From Aspergillus flavus (taxonomy: Eukaryota; Ascomycota; Eurotiomycetes; Eurotiales; Aspergillaceae): 64,000 nucleotides of DNA. Within the stretch, counting starts at the first letter, position 1. Each line of letters starts with the position of its first letter. A program made the translations under genes and the position numbers. The notes beneath the pieces were generated by a model. The model did not search any database, had not been told where the DNA came from, and saw only the letters and a program-made list of their open reading frames with translations. Location of the stretch: positions 3,348,001 to 3,412,000 of the forward strand of contig NC_092410.1 of assembly GCF_009017415.1 (NCBI RefSeq), in the 5' to 3' direction. Positions 2,942 to 51,442 of this stretch are shown here, piece after piece.

Positions 2942-3096
2942 GGCAAGGTGGCCGAGTGGTTATGGCGCTAGTTGTTCGTCTCCCACCACAACACCTACTT
3001 TTCTCCATCGGAACATCTCAACTAACAACCTCCAAGTTAGGTTCTATCTAATCACTAGTTTCGATTGATTCGCGGGTTCGAATCCCGTCCTTGTCA
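2942..3096 (+). tRNA. tRNA-Leu (TAG) with two introns
   Basis: The acceptor stem GGCAAGG pairs with CCTTGTC (3089-3095) and the discriminator is A (3096), as expected for Leu. The D arm GCC...GGC (box A) and the T arm GCGGG-TTCGAAT-CCCGT (box B) are intact. The anticodon stem is CTAGT (2968-2972) with ACTAG (3054-3058), and the variable arm 3059-3071 is 13 nt, so it is class II. A normal loop T-T-TAG-G-C appears only if two segments are removed: 2974-3036 (63 nt; GTTCGT at the start, CTAAC branch-like box at 3022-3026, AAG at the end) between positions 32 and 33, and 3042-3052 (11 nt) at the canonical 37/38 site. The short intron contains CTAA, complementary to TTAG of the loop, as in normal pre-tRNAs. 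A T5 Pol III terminator lies at 3102-3106. The isotype is inferred from this folding. Confidence 0.72.
2974..3036 (+). other. spliceosomal-like intron inside tRNA-Leu(TAG)
   Basis: This 63-nt insertion starts GTTCGT, has CAACTAACAACC (a strong fungal branch-point box) about 12 nt before its end, and ends CCAAG. It interrupts the anticodon loop between positions 32 and 33, not the 37/38 site used by the tRNA splicing endonuclease. Confidence 0.6.
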
Positions 3097-3106
3097 TCAA
3101 GTTTTT

Positions 3107-4304: not shown

Positions 4305-7300
4305 ATGTTTCGGAGGCGAAGGAGCGCGTCGCATCATCAGGTCGGTCTACAATATAGCAACCTAGTCTAACCATGAACAACTAATACCCAATGTCTATCT
4401 CTAACAGCCTCTTTCGACGTCTAATGCGCAATCGGCCCAGTCCGCCGCCTCCCATGCTTTCCTCAAGTCTCAACCGTCCTCATCGAGTCTTTCATCTGCC
4501 GCCGCTGCCGCTGCCTTACGGAGCCTCACACCCACTCCGACTCCAGTGGAAAATGTTCAGACGAAGCGAATGATTCAGCGGCGCGCCTCCGTCGCCTCCC
4601 AGTCTAGTATCGCCGGAAGTCTGCGCCCCTCTAGCCAAAACACCCTTCGTCGAGCTAATAGCTCAAGTTCCATGAGCAACCGGACCTTCCGGGATCAGTC
4701 CCCTCGCCGTCCGGCTTCCAGCTCCGGCCCAGTTCCCGTCGCCCCTCCCATCCCTTCGATCCCCCGGGAATATGCGATCCGGACGCCCCCAAATCGGCGC
4801 TCAGTCAGTGTCGGGCCGTCCTTGCGACCAACGTCCCCGGTGAAGCGGCAGCCATCAGGCCGAGGGGTGAGCGTCGACCCGGCTGCCAGAGGCTCTGCTA
4901 GCCGGTCATCAGCTCACGGCCACGAATTGGACCAGATACCAGAGCTCCAGAGAGCTGGAAGTAGGAATTCGATCAACTTCTCCTACCCGATGAACTCTCG
5001 ACCTAACTCTCCGACCCTGACTTCTGAACCCTTGGACAGACGGGACACTTCCGTTTGTGCATCCTTAGCTAGCCAATTGTCATCCCCTGATTCCCCCAAG
5101 ATCCAGAAATCCGCCCTGCAAACCGCCAATACTTCTGCGCGGAGGAAGACAAGGGGGGGTCTCTCAGGCAGTCCTGGGAGAGGTGTCCAGCCGGCAGACA
5201 CTGCGATCCTTGCAGCACAGGCAGCAATCGTACCCCGAAGCGAGGAAGCGGCATATCAGCCATCCCCTCCTCGCTTGGCTGCGCCTCGAGAGCAAAATAC
5301 CAGAGACCTGGCATATAAAGCTCCTAAAGCTCGAGAGACCGCTGGTCGGTCAGTACACGACCAGCAAGACCAACTTCAGCCGCGTGATCCTGAGTTCAGT
5401 CAGCAGCTTCCAGAAACAGATCATAAACAGCCACCACGTCCGGTTCTGACGAAACGACCTTCGACTGTTCCTGAAGACTTCCCAGGGGAGGAACGTGCAG
5501 AAGCAGACACTCCGGCGGAAGGGGTCGAGCATGCCGCGGTCGAGCGTTCGTTGCCCGAGACCAGGTCGACAGTCCGGACGCCAACACCTGAAAAGTTTAA
5601 GGATCCATTACCGAGTTCTATTGTCAGCTCGCCAGAGTCTACCAGCTCGATCGGTCCTGAACGGGAATCTCAGCTGTTGCATGCTCGCCCGCCGAGCAGC
5701 AGTCCGGGGAGATCGACCCGCTTCTCTAACCAGCTCTCGGTCATGGGTCTTGTCGGCGAACATCTTCACCAACCCCCTCCCCGGTCAGTGTCTCCCGCCA
5801 AATCAGCGATGAAGAATCCGAGGAAATGCTCAGTATCCCCTGATGGAAGAACTGGGGTAGTGCTGCGGCCCGGCCCAGCTCTTAGCGAGCTCTCGGATGG
5901 AACATCTGTGGGATCTGATGAGGGTTCTAGGCTTGGGTTCCGAAGAAAGCCTGTAAAAGTTAGCTTTGATGACGAGGCGGAAATTGTTGGGGTGGCTGCG
6001 AGTCCACCAACCTCCCCAGAAGATATTGGTCTTGAGTCGCCTCCAATGAAGCCCAAAGGGAAGACAGGTTGGTTTGGCATGGGAAAAAGGAAATCTGCTA
6101 CTGTGGGGTCGGATGAATTTGATGAGGTATTCAAGCCTCGACCTGAGCTCCCTTCGTTTGGTAGCATACGAAAGGCCAGGGACAGCGAGCAGCAAGAACC
6201 TGCCCGGCAAGATATGAGTGACAATGAATCGACGGCATCCTCAGATCCTACTGTGTCTCCAATTTCCTTCTCGAACGACCACGCTATTGGAGCTATCATC
6301 TCAAACACACAGTCACAAGACGCCAATCCTCATACGCAACTGGACCGAACAGCATCACCTACCCCTGCGGCGGCAGCTAAGAGTGGAGTACCCCTAGAGG
6401 GACCAGGCGGAAATACTTTTGTTTCAAATCAAGAGTCGCAACCTGCACAGGACGCTCAGTCAGCATCGTTAAACTCACACCAAGACGAGAAGCTGGAGAC
6501 AACCGAAAACTTGGCAGTCCCTGGGATTGCAGTTCAACCAGCTACCCCGGAAGGTGAAAGAGGGCGGTCGAGCCTTGACTGGTATACCGTGCCGGGAGGA
6601 TTTCCGCGGTCATCTTTGGAAGTTGATACCACAAGCCACGACTCTACTAAGCGGAAAGGCAAGAAGCAAACTCCAGGCGACCCTGTGGTTGATGCGACTC
6701 GGAGCAATGTGAGCGATGAGGACGAATCTGGCGAGAGTATCTACAGTGACGCTGAGGAAGGACTTGAGGGCGATGGTTTTGGTTCTATCAATGCTGTGGT
6801 TGATGAGCCTACGTCCCCCCAGCGCAAAGATGCGGTGACCACGGATAACAACATACACAGCATTGACCAGGTAACTGGCATTCCGCAAACCTGTCAAATT
6901 GCTCGTGTGGCAAATCCAGTACACACTATATCCCTCTCGCCGGTTCCAGAATCCCCAAGTTCTTCACATGAACGGCTTCCCTACTCGTCCCCGTACCCGC
7001 CGTTTCCCGCACGGTCCAACAGTAGAAGAAATATGCGAGAAATCCCCCGCTCCTCTTCGTCTACGGGTACAGCAAGACGGTCTATGTCAGTAAACGCTCC
7101 TGACGGTCACCCTGTGTGTGAAGCAACTGATTCAGTTGTTCATGGCCCGTTACAACCACAGTCTGGAAATGTTTTCAATCAACCGCGTCATAAGCCTGGT
7201 GATGAACAAATCAAGAAGCGACCCGCTTCGTGGGCCCCAAACTTGCTGAAAGGTGGTCTTAATGACGACCTATATGTTAATGGGAATGTCCCCGAGCCTC

Positions 7301-8433
7301 AAAGGCCACTATCGAACGGTAGTGATTCATCCAGCAGCTTCAAGAGATCAAATCGCCCCCGGACAGACTCCCCACATACAATACGACGGTCTCTACGAGG
7401 TCCCTCAAGCAGCCCATTCCGGACTATTTCCCCTCAAAGCACAAAATTGCCACCTACCAATAGCCGGCCTCTTTCATCCGGCTCAAGTACTGGTGCTCTA
7501 CGTGTTACACTGCGATCGAACGATGCTCGGCGTGAGAAACCTGCTTTCTTCTCTACTGGAAAAGTACAGAAGGCCAGGACTACAAAGGCTTCGGGGGCAT
7601 TATTCACGTCACGATTCGCAGAGTCGGATGATGAGCAGGGAACGAGTCAACAAAAATGGCAAAGTCGATTTGAAGATTCGAGCGACGATGAAGAACGCGT
7701 AGTGAATAATCTCCCTCCCGTTCGCGGCATACCCAGACGTAAAGGCGCTCACGATGGTGACTCAACAGAATTAGAGGATAGTTCTGATAATGAACGGCCT
7801 GGCTTAGATTCCAGAGCTACCAAGGCGAAAGAAAGTGACGCCAGACCGGCTCGAAATCCTGCGCTTGCCGCTGTGGCTAAGTCTCGCGGGATGTCCGAGG
7901 AAGAAATGGAGGAGTTTCTTCGACAACCCGGTGGTCGCAGAGGTAGTCTGTTTCATCGTTTGAGCATCAGGAAACCTAAAGCACCGTCGGAGCGCCGGAC
8001 TTCCCGATCTCGCTCAGAAGCTAGGAACGGTTCTCTAGATCCTGAGCAAGTGCGGGAGAACCCTTTACTTGATGGTGCTCGGGGAAACACTGTTACAACG
8101 ATAACCACAAACAACACTAGGCCATCCTCCTCTCCCAGGCGGCTCAGGAGGGCAATCTCCAGATCTTCAAATGGCGATAGTTGGCCCCTCCGCTCCGATC
8201 GCAGGGAGACGAACACAGATGCTCCCCTCTCGGCTCTGCGTTCTTCTGAGCGACCCAAAACGGCGGATGGAGCCTTTCGAAATGGCAGTACGGCGTCAAA
8301 CGCCGTAGATGCAAGCGCCAAGAAAGCCGATCTGAGTAGTACAAATGCTACAGATGCCATGGACGTGGAATTTGCCTCCGGTCGAAAGAAGCGATTCCCT
8401 CGACTCCGGAAGGCCTTCGGCCTACGAAGCTAG
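4305..8433 (+). CDS. large disordered Ser-rich basic protein, possibly Seg1-like
   Basis: Exon 1 is 4305-4340 (start MFRRRRSASHHQ). A 67-nt phase-0 intron, 4341-4407, begins GTCGGT and ends CTAACAG. Exon 2 is 4408-8433. The frame closes at 1353 residues. Nearly the whole protein is low complexity: Ser/Pro/Arg-rich tracts, SP-rich motifs suggesting phosphorylation, scattered acidic patches (for example DDEAEIVG and EDSSDDEE), and a basic tail ending RFPRLRKAFGLRS. There are no membrane helices and no catalytic motif. The short basic MFRRRR start and overall build resemble fungal eisosome-stabilising Seg1 proteins, which act at the plasma membrane cortex, but this is a weak analogy. Conserved but uncharacterised fungal protein is the safe description. 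The start choice rests on the tiny first exon, which fits the frame exactly. Confidence 0.75.
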
Positions 8434-13180: not shown

Positions 13181-14502
13181 CTTTCGTTCGTATCTGTTCG
13201 AAAGGCATTCGAGAAAAGACGCCAAAGGACAGCCAATCTGGACTTTGACGCCCGTGTCCCCATCCCCTTCAGTGTCTTCCCGTCGTCGTACCGGAGTGAC
13301 GCTGTTCCTGAGCCTACTCTTGCACCTGAAAGAGTAGAGGAAGAAGTCAATCTCGATCGTCCTTCGCACGTCGAACGGGAAGACACTCGACCCTCTGCTC
13401 CTCTCCCAGATCCCCGTATCTACGGAAAGGAAGAGATCGATCTACGCGCCCAGCGCGACTCTCGTCCTGTTCCGCCCCCTGCCCCCCAGCCTGACCAATA
13501 CTCGGTTTACACCGAAGACCGGTACCAGCAGCAAGACCGCTTCCAGCAGGAAAAGCCCTATCCCGAGGTCCATCTCGCGCGTGAACGGTATGTTTATTGA
13601 TTATTGTGCATCTGATCTCAATTTTGGAGCTCGGATCTCCGTGGACTATTGATTTTGTGATAGCGAGCTGCAATTAGCCCCGGTTTTCTCTGATATCAAA
13701 TGGGAGAACCGGGTCAATTCGCTTGCAATCAGCTCGCTTGTATTTTTGTTTTGGTCTCTCTTTCCCCGATTACCCTCGGCTCTAGTGTATTTTTCCTCTC
13801 GTCTTGCTTTTGTTTTGTTTTGTTTTTTTGGTACCCTTACAGGTGGGGACCGGGGATTATCCACACCAAGTGGGGAGAGTCAACAAGCGGTGTCACGACA
13901 TCAAATGGTGGCTTCAGCTGGTCGGGGGCTAAGGCCATTAGTCCCCAAAACTAATTACGTGGCACCAAAACAAAACAAACCAAATCATGGCACAGATCAT
14001 ATTCTTTTTTCAAAACACTTTGCCCTCCCCCAGCCTCTCGTCCACAATATAATCACCCAATCACCTCGTCCCCCAACCTCATTCTTTATATCTTGGTCTA
14101 ACTTCCCTTGCCTTTAGCTATCAAGAGCCTACCTCATACCCTCGCTTCCAAGAGACTCCCAAGGTCTACGATCAGGAGCTTTCCAACCAGCTAGACATCA
14201 CTGAGCGTGATTATCGTCGTCGTGTCAACCAACAGACCTACGACGTCTATAACACCAACGCTAGCTATCAGCAGTCTAGTGTAGAGTCCTACGAGAACCG
14301 TCAACCCGTCTCGTACGACCGTACTCCTGCCCACCCCCAGCTCGACGTCTCGTACGACAAGGCTTATCAAGCTCCCACCCTCGAGACCTACCCCGGCTCT
14401 TCTCGCAGCCAACGTCAGGTCTCTGTCGAGCCAGTCAACCCACCTTCTCAAGTCAAGGTTCTTAGCACTACTACTGTAGTTGATCATCCCCCTGCTCGCA
14501 AG
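13180..14502 (+). other. in-frame upstream open region of hex1 with a 530-nt intron
   Basis: Exon part 13180-13587 and exon part 14118-14502 read as one frame (CG|C junction, giving Arg) and continue into the Hex1 ATG. The predicted extension is about 260 residues, rich in Tyr, Gln, Pro, Glu and Arg (for example YQEPTSYPRFQETPKVY). It contains no Met codon, so it is either spliced leader with unusually coding-like composition, or an N-terminal extension started from a small unseen exon or a non-AUG codon. Alternative splicing of hex1 transcripts is reported in other Aspergilli. Confidence 0.55.
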
Positions 14503-15183
14503 ATGGGATACTACGACGACGACGGTAACTACCACTCCTTCCGTCGTGGTGTGGAACGCGCTGCCGACCGCATCATGCACCCTTTCCATCACCATGACCA
14601 CCATGGTGAACATCATCATCATCATCATGATCATGGCCGTCAGGATGTCGCCGTTGCTGACGATCGCGGTCCAGTTTCCCGTGACGGTGCCCACCACGCC
14701 GTCCGCGTCGTTGAGCCCCGCAGCAGCGGTCGCAGAAGCGCCGACACCGTGCCCATTCCCTGCAACTTCATTCGCATCGGCGACATCTTGATCCTCCAGG
14801 GCCGTCCCTGCCAGGTCATCCGTATCTCCGTGTCGCCCCAGACCGGCCAGCACCGCTACCTCGGTGTCGATCTCTTCACCCGCCAACTGCAGGAGGAGTC
14901 CAGCTTCGTCTCCAACCCCTCTCCCTCCGTTGTTGTCCAGACCATGATTGGCCCTGTCTACAAGACCTACCGCATCCTCGACATCCGTGATAACCAGATC
15001 GTCGCCATGACCGAGACCGGTGATGTCAAGCAGGGCATCCCAGTTGTTCCTCAGGGCGAACTCTTCAGCAAGATCAAGGCAGCCTTCGAGGACGGACACG
15101 GCAGCGTCCGTGCTCTGGTCATCAACGATGGTGGTCGTGAGCTCGTTGTGGACTACAAGGTTATCCAGTCTTCCCGTCTGTAG
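14503..15183 (+). CDS. hexA: Woronin body major protein Hex1/HexA
   Basis: The 226-residue core begins MGYYDDDGN, like known Hex1 proteins, has a His-rich linker (residues about 25-46), and then the eIF5A-like double domain (VPIPCNFIRIGDILILQGRPC, GQHRYLGVDLF, VVVQTMIGPVYK, VAMTETGDVKQGIPV). It ends SRL, a peroxisomal PTS1 signal. Hex1 self-assembles into a crystalline core in a peroxisome-derived organelle that plugs septal pores after hyphal wounding. The ATG at 14503 is the first AUG in the likely spliced transcript. Upstream, an open frame with coding character runs through exon 13180-13587, a 530-nt intron (13588-14117, GTATGT...TTTAG) and 14118-14502 in the same frame, so a longer N-terminal isoform may exist. 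The gene is tail to tail with the Cti6-like gene. Confidence 0.93.
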   Translation: MGYYDDDGNYHSFRRGVERAADRIMHPFHHHDHHGEHHHHHHDHGRQDVAVADDRGPVSRDGAHHAVRVVEPRSSGRRSADTVPIPCNFIRIGDILILQGRPCQVIRISVSPQTGQHRYLGVDLFTRQLQEESSFVSNPSPSVVVQTMIGPVYKTYRILDIRDNQIVAMTETGDVKQGIPVVPQGELFSKIKAAFEDGHGSVRALVINDGGRELVVDYKVIQSSRL

Positions 15184-29704: not shown

Positions 29705-29841
29705 GGCGAGATGGCCGAGCGGTCTAAGGCGGTTAGTACCACTATCAACCTCGTATATCAATGAATGTTCACTAATAATCTCTCAGCTGGAGTAAGGTTC
29801 CAGTCTCGAAAGGGGCGTGGGTTCAAATCCCACTCTCGTCA
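29705..29841 (+). tRNA. tRNA-Leu (AAG) with a 55-nt non-canonical intron
   Basis: The acceptor GGCGAGA pairs with TCTCGTC (29834-29840), and the discriminator A (29841) fits Leu. The D arm GGCCGAGCGGTCTAAGGC is typical. The anticodon arm is CTGGA-GTAAGGT-TCCAG (29787-29803), giving anticodon AAG with T33 and G37. The 13-nt variable arm has a CTC/GGG stem, and the T arm GTGGG-TTCAAAT-CCCAC is perfect. Between base 26 (29731) and base 27 (29787) lies a 55-nt insertion, 29732-29786. It starts GTTAGT, has CACTAATAA near its end and ends CTCAG. Base 32 is G rather than the usual pyrimidine. A T8 Pol III terminator follows at about 29847. The gene looks functional if the insertion is spliced out. 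Confidence 0.82.
29732..29786 (+). other. spliceosomal-like intron inside tRNA-Leu(AAG)
   Basis: The donor GTTAGT, a CTAAT branch box at 29772-29776 and the acceptor CAG, 55 nt in all, match the spliceosomal introns of protein genes in this window. The position, 26/27, is one that the tRNA splicing endonuclease does not normally cut. Confidence 0.65.
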
Positions 29842-41780: not shown

Positions 41781-43092
41781 TGCTTACCGTGGGCATTGAC
41801 AGCAGCACGCTTAGCGCTTTACAGGGCATGATAGGCATTGGTGCTACCATCGTTGTTGGCATCACCGATGACATAGAGGCCGCTAACGCTTGACTCCATG
41901 TTACTCTTGATTTTGACCGAATTCCCATCCATCTCCAAGAGCAACTGCTTGTGGAGGTTGGACGTCTGAGTAGTAGATACGTGGATGATGATTCTGTTCA
42001 CGATCAAGGGACTGCTGCTGCTGCTCATGTGGACGTTATACTAACCCTCCTGGGGCTCCATACCGGTCGTGGTACGTTCGACGCTGGTGATATCCTCCTA
42101 GATAAAAATATTCTAGGTATCCGTGATGACTGTTTCCCAGCCCGGTCATCGTGTGTCTGCCGCCTCCTTATCGTCCCCGTTCAATTCACCACCAGAATCA
42201 ATATGTATATCGGTTGCCAGCTTTCCCAGGTTCAGTGCAGAGCCAATGGCACTTGCAAGCTTGCCATACGGGACTATCTTGCGGTTCTTATAGTCATGGC
42301 TATCGCACCAGGGACATCAAACATATCTTTTCCAAAAGCTTCAGCAAGCACTGGCCTACTTGACTGAGGGCATACCTTGTTTGAGGACCCTCTTATACGA
42401 CTCTAGTAAGCCACACTGCTTTAACAGACACAGGATCTGGGATATATCAGAGCTACTGACATTAATTTTTGCACGATATAATTTTCTACACCTGAAAACC
42501 TAGTACATACGACCATAGGGTGTGGAGAACAGGGCTTCCCGTCCGCTCAGCCGTACTTAAGCCACACGCCGGGAGGTTAGTAGTTGGGTGGGTGACCACC
42601 AGCGAATCCCTCCTGTTGTATGTTTTTGTATTTTTTTTATTTCTTAAATCCGCTAACACGTCCTTGTTACCAGTGGCCATGATGACCCTCTTAGCGGTAA
42701 CCTTTCCGACTCTGTCGTCGTAGACCCGGAAACCCTTCCCGATGGGAACGATGCCAATAACCTTCGTCTTACGTGTGGCGCAAAGATACTCGGGGTGCAC
42801 TTCCTCGATTTGCTGTCGAACTCCTGATCGAAACTTCAGTAGTATCTGACCTACTTACATTCAGTCCCCAGTCCTTACATAAAAGTGACCACTTGCCGTC
42901 TTGTCCCAAAGCATCATACATATGTCGCGTCTTGTCATTCCAGTACTCTTGTGAATCACACAAGGGGAATGCTTGAGCAACTCGAGCAAGATGCAAGTGA
43001 GCGTACTTCAGACTCTGCCACAAGAGGAGAGTAGAAGCAAGAGGAAGAGAAAGGAGACAGGGACGCCAGAAAGAAAGACCGAGGCGTACCAT
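41781..43092 (-). pseudogene. decayed thioredoxin-reductase-like FAD oxidoreductase
   Basis: Read on the minus strand, fragments match successive parts of the class II pyridine-nucleotide-disulphide oxidoreductase family used in fungal metabolite clusters. At 42890-43000 lies LCDSQEYWNDKTRHMYDALGQDG, the FAD-domain region after the first strand. At 42660-42800 lies VYDDRVGKVTAKRVIMATGNKDVL, including the second ATG motif. At 41820-41900 lies GLYVIGDANNDGSTNAYHA, the conserved end region that binds FAD. The pieces are in different frames, separated by stops and unrelated sequence. Where a CxxC redox pair is expected near 42510, the frame reads LWSYVLGF with no cysteines. No intact start or GxGxxG site is seen. 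It is a relic, not a functional enzyme, and no cluster partners remain nearby. Confidence 0.72.
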
Positions 43093-44086: not shown

Positions 44087-44191
44087 TGCTTCCAACGAGA
44101 ATCGAACTCGTGCTTGCGGATTGCAGACCCTTTAGATAGGAGCTGTCATATTGCTATGAGACCGCCGTCCTAACCACTAGACTATGGAAAC
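44087..44191 (-). tRNA. tRNA-Met (CAT), intron-containing
   Basis: The acceptor GTTTCCA (44191-44185) pairs with TGGAAGC, including one G-T pair, and the discriminator is A (44087). The D arm GTCTAGTGGTTAGGAC and T arm ACGAG-TTCGATT-CTCGT are intact. The anticodon arm is GCGGT-CTCATA-[intron]-A-TCCGC. Anticodon CAT has T33 and A37, and the T31-T39 mismatch is also found in yeast elongator tRNA-Met. The 33-nt intron, 44154-44122, is at the canonical 37/38 site. Its TATGA is complementary to TCATA of the loop, as expected for endonuclease-spliced introns. A T5 terminator lies just downstream on the minus strand. The body otherwise looks Glu-like, so the isotype is less sure than the gene. Confidence 0.62.
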
Positions 44192-49890: not shown

Positions 49891-51442
49891 TCACTGCGTT
49901 TTCTTCGTCGTCGAAGCAGTAGATGTGGGCGCAGAGTAGAGCCACACAATGACGAAGGCCAGGAAACCGCCGATAACGGACCAGAGGCCAGCGATCCAGA
50001 CCCATCCTCCGCTGATCTTCCAGCTGCGAGGATATTCGTTGTGAGCATAATGGCGGACAGTCACCTCGTGCTTCTCCTCAATGTTGGTGAGGAAGGGACG
50101 CTTGTAGTTGACACGGAAGGAGAAGATACCGTGTTGGTCGGGGACGGTGAACTTAGTGCTGTAGATGGTGCTGTTTTCCGTCTTGGCGGAAGGCTGGAGG
50201 TCAAGACGATGGAAGGGGGACAGCATGGTGAACTCGAGCTGAAGGGCATCATTCTCGGGAACCTCGAAAGGCAAATACTTGTCGTAGCTGTACTCGGAGA
50301 CCTCAATGCTGAAGACCTGTGAAGAGGTTTGTCAGTTCATTCCTAGCACTATCTTACAGTTGTGTGGCGATCGTCACATACTGTCTCGTTCTTGATCCGG
50401 TAGATCTTAGGGTTCAGTTCACCACCCTCGGCCAGATGATGTTCAATCTTGCCAACCTTGAGGACTCCAGTCTCCTTGAAGGTCCAGGCGGTCAGCTGTT
50501 TGGCAAACTCACGGTTAGCAGTCTCAGACTCTTTTCCATCACCAGGAGCCTTGACAGTAGCGGAGAACCACTTGTCCTGGAGACTCTCAACCGAGCCCAG
50601 AAGAGTGAAGCGGGCAGAATTCCGAGCCTGCATGGCCGAAACAAGAGCCAGCTGGGAGCCCGAAGCCACAACATCCTCAACCGAGCCCACATCCTCCTTG
50701 GGGTTGTAGCTGTAAGCAGTTGCCGGGGCGCGCAGAATGGGAGCGAGAAGTGGGTTGGAGTCACCCAGAGTGTGAGGGGCGGTCCTTGGGAAAGCCAGAA
50801 CGCCCTCACCACCGAAGAATGCCTTGGTGTCGCGCCTCAACTGGCCGGGGCGCTGGAGAACGAGGACATCATGCTTCTCATCTGCAGAAAGAGTGTCATA
50901 ATCAAAGTGATCAACGACAACGGAGGAACGGTCGGTAGACAGATGAAGGTCGAGTTCTAAGAGGAGCGAGCTGATAGCGCTGGGGGTAGTGGACTTCCCG
51001 GAAAGGGCGAGAAGGACGTTGCCGTCTTTGTTCATGAATTCGATGATGTTCTTGGGGTTCAAAGAAGGTCCGAAGCCTGCATTAGGAGTCAATTGTGCGC
51101 CATGGACCACATCCGATTCTCAATGGGTTATTTTGCGAACCTTTCGACCGAGGAGGAAGGAGGAGGACATGGTCGTAAGCTCTTTCTCCGAGCTCGAACA
51201 AGGAAAGCTTGTCACTCTTGGGCGATTCGAAAGCGAGGTTGTATCCGCGGGCTGTAAGATAGTTAGCATCAATTACTTCCAGTTGTCAATTGTGCCTCAC
51301 CTTCTAGATCCCCCCAGAACGTAGAGTAAGCATCCTTCTCAGCCTCATCCTCCAGAACAACCAGTAGACGGTTCCCCGAACTACTCAACGCATGTACAAC
51401 AGCCAAGAAGCCGAACAGCAGTAAGGAAAGACACCACCGCAT
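49891..51442 (-). CDS. wbp1: oligosaccharyltransferase 48-kDa subunit (OST48/Wbp1)
   Basis: Four exons (51442-51301, 51251-51141, 51076-50382, 50316-49891) give 457 residues with the frame closed. Introns are 49, 64 and 65 nt. A signal peptide (MRWCLSLLLFGFLAVVHA) leads into the lumenal domain (LVVLEDEAEKDAYSTFWGDL, YDHVLLLPPRSKGFGPSL, VLLALSG). A single membrane helix near the C-terminus (WVWIAGLWSVIGGFLAFVIV) is followed by a short cytosolic tail with lysines (TTKKTQ). A KKxx-type ER retrieval signal is present in variant form. Wbp1 is a non-catalytic core subunit of the ER oligosaccharyltransferase that N-glycosylates nascent proteins, and it is essential in yeast. The start at 51442 follows the signal peptide. 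It is head to head with the nuo9.5 gene, 425 bp away. Confidence 0.95.

Follow-up and report, generated by a model that had tools for sequence, protein, structure and literature searches.

Putative spliceosomal introns in tRNA genes of Aspergillus flavus, including two genes whose transcripts would pass through both splicing machineries

The splicing of tRNAs and the splicing of mRNAs are taught as separate pathways. A tRNA-Leu(TAG) gene in the stretch of Aspergillus flavus DNA analysed here (the window, 64,000 nt) raises the question of whether the two can meet on a single RNA: the first-pass annotation had read it as a gene broken twice in its anticodon loop, by a short intron at the canonical position 37/38 and by a longer insert between positions 32 and 33 that looks like an mRNA intron. 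The gene proves to be one of at least 11 tRNA genes of this genome with a long insert of this sort. We judge it probable, from their sequences, that tRNA genes transcribed by RNA polymerase III (Pol III) here carry spliceosomal introns of the U2 type (GT-AG), and that the products of the window gene and of a tRNA-Thr(TGT) gene pass through both the spliceosome and the tRNA endonuclease.

The boundaries of the 63-nt insert in the window gene (Table 1) are well fixed, since its nearest relative found in the genome, the tRNA-Leu(TAG) paralog L002 (C3:4264699-4264788), is without the insert and only a single register of removal yields tRNA-Leu(TAG). When the insert is taken out, ARAGORN names the 92-nt remainder tRNA-Leu(tag), leaving the 11-nt intron unmarked; when it is kept, the call is Pro(agg). 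L002 has an 11-nt canonical intron of its own in the same place as 3042-3052, with another sequence, which ARAGORN does mark, and it is by comparison with this paralog that the short intron is assigned to position 37/38. The earlier claim that a cloverleaf appears only after removal of both segments (2974-3036 and 3042-3052) is therefore correct to the base, given ARAGORN, the single register and L002. The short intron also pairs with the anticodon as had been claimed (4/4 pairs), though random sequence does so in 1130 of 5000 trials. The claim that the long insert carries spliceosomal signals stands for its GT donor (it starts GTTCGT), its ACTAAC branch sequence and its terminal AG, but not for a typical YAG acceptor, as the 3' end is CCAAG followed by T.

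Table 1. Coordinates of the interrupted tRNA-Leu genes of the window and of their parts (a slash in RAG/Y marks the splice junction)
Feature	Position in window	Strand	Basis
tRNA-Leu(TAG) gene, two interruptions; exons 2942-2973, 3037-3041, 3053-3096	2942..3096	+	ARAGORN and paralog L002
63-nt insert, tRNA position 32/33, read as a putative spliceosomal intron	2974..3036	+	missing in L002; GT...ACTAAC...AG; single register
GTTCGT, 5' splice-site-like	2974..2979	+	sequence
ACTAAC, branch-point-like, with the presumed branch A (3025) 11 nt from the insert's 3' end	3021..3026	+	sequence
AAG, 3' splice-site-like, atypical (RAG/Y)	3034..3036	+	sequence; Fusarium intron classes
11-nt canonical 37/38 intron, can pair with anticodon	3042..3052	+	comparison with L002; central-helix test
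T5, Pol III terminator-like, 6 nt past the gene end	3102..3106	+	sequence
tRNA-Leu(AAG) gene; all nine copies found, this one included, are interrupted	29705..29841	+	genome DNA search; Rfam; ARAGORN
55-nt insert at 26/27: GTTAGT...ACTAAT (presumed branch A at 29775)...CTCAG	29732..29786	+	ARAGORN; alignment

Rfam, run on the window at the gathering score, picked up the tRNA-Leu(AAG) gene, a Met-like tRNA gene and a 5S rRNA gene and missed the tRNA-Leu(TAG) gene; ARAGORN in bacterial mode found nothing in the window. The Met-like gene (44087-44191, minus strand) has a CAT anticodon in a loop that by eye resembles that of elongator Met, with an intron of 33 nt at 37/38, and ARAGORN calls it Ala(cgc) as it stands; the 5S rRNA gene (42505-42624, plus strand) is full length (81 bits) and uninterrupted. 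The protein-coding frames of the window include one of 1342 aa at 4405-8430, 98% identical to a cluster that bears the name of A. minisclerotigenes; the name Woronin body protein occurs among its homologs, perhaps by way of fused gene models. Pfam scans covered 20 frames of the window. A 376-aa frame with eIF5A-like domains at 14053-15180 (plus strand) possibly encodes the Woronin body protein, and a gene for OST48, the oligosaccharyltransferase beta subunit, lies at 49894-51119 (minus strand) in at least two exons.

The double layout is not confined to one gene. A scan of the genome for over-long distances between A-box and B-box brought up a tRNA-Thr(TGT) gene, L066 (C4, about 4171952-4172088, minus strand), with a 55-nt insert at 32/33 (GTGAGT...ACTAAC...AAAAAAG) and a 10-nt canonical intron, so two unrelated tRNAs are interrupted doubly at the same two positions. 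Like the window gene, which is one of two tRNA-Leu(TAG) copies and the only one with a long insert, L066 is the exception among its kind: of three tRNA-Thr(TGT) copies, L070 and L071 have no insert and each carries a 12-nt canonical intron. The exons of L066 match those of L070 at 72/72 positions and those of L071 at 71/72. L071 (C3, about 3606998-3607081) has T in place of A as its discriminator base, and ARAGORN misnames it Ser even though it has no long insert. Both 32/33 inserts, that of the window gene (AAG at 3034-3036) and that of L066, end in AAG before TT, a rare class of 3' splice site.

Since insert-free paralogs exist for both tRNAs, the interrupted copies could be dispensable or dying. 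They might then be recent dead copies that have taken up intron-like DNA, with tRNA-Leu(AAG) as the only truly spliced family, and the rare AAG before T at the 3' end of both inserts, as well as a variable arm in the window gene that differs from that of L002, fits such an origin. Against this, the Thr exons are identical to those of L070 throughout, and the window gene retains its canonical intron, both promoter boxes and a terminator. Its anticodon stem also differs from that of L002 by a paired change (CTAGT/ACTAG against CTGGT/ACCAG, an A-T pair for a G-C pair), which speaks for a working gene, though the variable arm leaves some doubt. In both inserts, moreover, donor, branch sequence and AG lie at the exact tRNA boundaries. 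We consider decay of the two genes very unlikely, and take both to be probable working genes with putative spliceosomal introns.

The tRNA-Leu(AAG) gene of the window belongs to a family in which the insert appears to be fixed. A genome search with the gene at 29705-29841 returned nine full-length matches (E <= 0.001), all through an insert; nine is a lower bound set by the search. A D-arm pattern search recovered the same nine genes together with four tRNA-Leu(CAG) genes, and neither search showed an uninterrupted tRNA-Leu(AAG) copy. Four tRNA-Leu(CAG) genes lie within 7 kb at C3:320321-326871 (L036-L039), with canonical introns of 31-33 nt. The nine tRNA-Leu(AAG) inserts, 51-57 nt long and all at 26/27, follow GGCG in the exon, begin GTTAGT, end ACTAATAATYTCTCAG and are followed by CTGGA; they are the only interruption in these genes, which have no second intron. 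The first-pass annotation had mentioned a second tRNA-Leu with a similar insertion. That gene, at 29705-29841, is indeed interrupted; its insert lies at another position, has no canonical intron beside it, and recurs throughout a nine-gene family.

Alignment of the nine copies shows where the inserts are held constant. In the exons, 26 of 27 columns (exon 1) and 55 of 55 (exon 2) are invariant; in the insert, the first 8 columns are all invariant, as are 15 of the last 16, against 6 of 34 in the middle (gap columns counted). Selection on donor, branch and acceptor, with more freedom for the remainder, would be expected to leave conserved ends around a divergent middle in this way. As the copies stand, ARAGORN names seven of them Glu and two Arg. 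Two registers of removal give the same tRNA-Leu(AAG) product, and the insert boundaries rest on the cloverleaf, as there is no insert-free copy to fix them. The codons CTT and CTC would both be read by tRNA-Leu(AAG) under established decoding rules. Among the 1040 Leu codons counted in 31 long open frames from the window and the loci, 489 are CTT or CTC, so that maturation of this tRNA, the one reader of CUU/CUC covered by the search, can hardly be optional. In A. niger, Table 1 of PMC6108506 lists two tRNA-Leu(AAG) genes, of 111 and 112 nt, each holding an intron of 27 nt; the long insert may therefore be confined to part of the genus and be younger than the genus itself.

In all 11 insert copies the sequence reads GT...CTAAY...AG, and the presumed branch A precedes the 3' end by 11-12 nt. 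Of ten canonical introns taken from these genes and from tRNA genes nearby, none is GT...AG and two contain CTRAY. Mononucleotide shuffling (400,000 shuffles for each insert) reproduces GT...CTRAY...AG at rates of 7e-5 for Leu(TAG), 1.3e-4 for the Leu(AAG) gene of the window, a figure that its second possible register doubles, and 2.1e-4 for Thr; the product of the three register-corrected rates is about 4e-12, with independence assumed. ARAGORN gives the correct name to 0/11 of the genes with the insert in place and to 11/11 once it is removed, although it is a weak judge, as it misnames the insert-free L071 (Ser) and the Met-like gene (Ala).

How closely these signals resemble those of fungal mRNA introns differs from site to site. 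In Fusarium core-gene introns, according to the figures given in PMC5677156, the base at +3 is A, G, T or C in the proportions 74/16/6/4, CTRAY is present in 91%, the 3' splice site is YAG before R in 94.3% and RAG before Y in 2.18%, and lengths run from 42 nt. The Thr donor, GTGAGT, is typical, while GTTAGT (Leu(AAG)) and GTTCGT (Leu(TAG)) have the less common T at +3, and about 5-6% of random GTNNNN sequences score at least as high as these two on the Fusarium table. At the 3' end the nine Leu(AAG) copies have the typical CAG, and the two remaining kinds of insert, those of Leu(TAG) and Thr(TGT), have the rare AAG before T; the exon flanks do not have the form AG before and G after the insert. 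The insert lengths, 51-63 nt, lie above the Fusarium minimum.

For comparison within this genome we assembled thirteen protein-gene introns, which are 52-89 nt long with 9-23 nt from branch to end. They have coding flanks and are the introns common to 108 candidates chosen by donor and 48 chosen by acceptor; a GTRNG donor is present in 21 of the 48. Because the thirteen were picked on GTRNG and CTRAY/YAG, they compare lengths and distances rather than giving an unbiased consensus, and they say of the tRNA inserts only that their size and spacing are ordinary, 51 nt being just below the sample. The 3' ends of the 108 donor-selected candidates were CAG in 33, GAG in 28, AAG in 24 and TAG in 23; with ends so mixed and a well-placed CTRAY in only 24, many of these candidates must be false. 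A coding-potential search for introns without a signal filter was too noisy to use (62 candidates, 38 scoring >20, of which 15 have CTRAY); adding a strand filter left 11 candidates, with CTRAY in six of the ten scoring >10.

Might another machinery remove the long inserts? Group I and group II self-splicing introns span several hundred nt and have a ribozyme core, far from inserts of 51-63 nt. The tRNA splicing endonuclease is the more serious candidate. Ectopic and multiple tRNA introns exist in archaea, an alga and Cyanidioschyzon, as PMC4090602 describes, and its authors conclude that certain eukaryotic endonucleases can act at non-canonical sites. If the long inserts were non-canonical introns cut by this enzyme, their GT, CTAAY and AG would be a coincidence or would reflect RNA structure, and in Leu(AAG) GTTAGT and ACTAAT are indeed partly complementary. 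The Thr donor GTGAGT and its branch sequence ACTAAC are not, so a structural role for the paired motifs may apply to the Leu(AAG) family alone. The long inserts sit at 26/27 or 32/33, away from the 37/38 position of endonuclease introns, and in a test for the central helix of a bulge-helix-bulge they reach 3/4 pairs in 11/11 cases against 4/4 in four of five canonical introns, a weak distinction as random sequence reaches at least 3 in 3874 of 5000 trials. Three unrelated inserts share the splice signals, at the joint shuffle rate given above. Cutting by the endonuclease seems unlikely to us, and recognition by the spliceosome accounts better for the signals. An mRNA-type intron in a tRNA gene, as first proposed from the window gene, finds support in the insert-free L002, the double layout of the Thr gene and the conserved splice signals of the nine Leu(AAG) copies, which would all be spliced. 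As for the accompanying suggestion that a processing system is shared, it holds good inside this genome, where such inserts occur in Leu(TAG), Thr(TGT) and Leu(AAG).

How the inserts arrived is a separate matter. They may be introner-like elements that have spread, or mRNA introns inserted by reverse splicing, a tentative idea that concerns origin, not removal, and is compatible with spliceosomal excision. Both 32/33 inserts occupy the same position in unrelated tRNAs, as spread might produce, but the three kinds of insert appear by eye to be dissimilar outside the signals, and whole-genome DNA searches with the two genes, which may miss short diverged copies, turned up neither the 63-nt nor the 55-nt insert anywhere else.

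The interrupted genes have the features of Pol III genes. The A-box and B-box pattern is matched in 11/11, and runs of at least five T lie shortly downstream of the 11 genes, the longest T-run inside any insert being four. The figure of 11 is a lower bound: the long-insert scan covered A-boxes starting TGGC, TAGC, TAGTNT or TGGTNT, the last two at a single spacing range, and B-boxes of the form GGTTCRANNCC. Its other matches were a tandem tRNA pair at C3:1664982 and two sites judged to be chance, C8:2177362 and C7:1878601; reversed-pattern controls gave three matches in all. Only 63 of 1246 candidates received a score when Rfam was used to look for tRNAs across the genome, which does not amount to a tRNA census.

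From the anatomy of the genes, their paralogs and the conserved signals we infer a course of transcription and removal. Pol III would make pre-tRNA-Leu(UAG) from the window gene, the spliceosome would remove 2974-3036 through a branch at A3025 and so restore the anticodon arm, and only afterwards would tRNA endonuclease and ligase take out the 11-nt intron at 37/38. The endonuclease reads the anticodon loop (the A-I pair), and the spliceosome probably acts first, since the long insert splits position 32 from the rest of the loop that the endonuclease reads. The tRNA-Thr(TGT) gene on C4 would be processed likewise. In tRNA-Leu(AAG) the spliceosome would remove the 26/27 intron, and decoding of CUU and CUC would come to depend on it, because the intron is present in every copy found. 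We think it likely that the lineage, placed in section Flavi by protein similarity, has gained spliceosomal introns in tRNA genes repeatedly, has fixed one in tRNA-Leu(AAG) with spliceosome-dependent CUU/CUC decoding, and sends two tRNAs through the spliceosome and then the endonuclease.

Were a whole tRNA family to need the spliceosome, translation capacity would be tied directly to spliceosome activity, and U1 and U2 would have to reach Pol III transcripts, which carry no mRNA cap. With the Leu(TAG) and Thr(TGT) genes one could ask whether a single RNA passes both pathways and in which order, with interrupted and uninterrupted paralogs in one genome as ready controls. Such tRNAs can also escape gene finders or be given a wrong name, as the Glu and Arg calls on the Leu(AAG) family illustrate.

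Other non-coding RNA genes are known to carry spliceosomal introns, and ectopic tRNA introns are known too. Of nuclear tRNA genes with spliceosomal introns, or of a tRNA needing both machines, we found no earlier account among the papers listed by our searches of the open-access literature. U6 is a Pol III transcript with mRNA-type introns in some fungi. An mRNA-type intron in the U2 gene of Rhodotorula hasegawae is named in the reference list of PMC2586383. The fungal U6 and U2 genes resemble our case in having spliceosomal introns in small structural RNAs, whereas here the genes encode tRNAs, one isoacceptor is interrupted in 9/9 copies and two genes have an endonuclease-type intron as well. 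The U6 genes of this genome offer no Pol III precedent, as both matches above the cut-off run the full length without interruption, a further three scoring below it; one U6 gene, L075 (C7:1676177-1676282), adjoins the tRNA cluster of C7 (tRNAs at 1668180-1675759). Spliceosomal introns of ascomycete nuclear rDNA were reportedly described by Bhattacharya et al. in 2000 and Cubero et al. in 2000. Such introns are mentioned in PMC11889510 and in a reference title in PMC2586383; they too lie in non-protein genes, but in rRNA genes transcribed by Pol I rather than in tRNA genes. Among tRNA introns, the 10-12-nt introns of Leu(TAG) and Thr(TGT) belong with the canonical eukaryotic 37/38 introns, from which the 51-63-nt inserts differ in position (26/27 or 32/33) and in carrying GT...CTAAY...AG. 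Ectopic introns are described for archaea in PMC4390854 and PMC4090602, the latter also mentioning the alga of Kawach et al. 2005, in which some tRNA genes have two or three introns. These archaeal and algal introns (those of Cyanidioschyzon, for example) share with our inserts a place outside 37/38 and, at times, company in the same gene; as described there, the archaeal ones are defined by a bulge-helix-bulge, whereas the inserts reported here, without support of that kind, carry the signals of spliceosomal introns.
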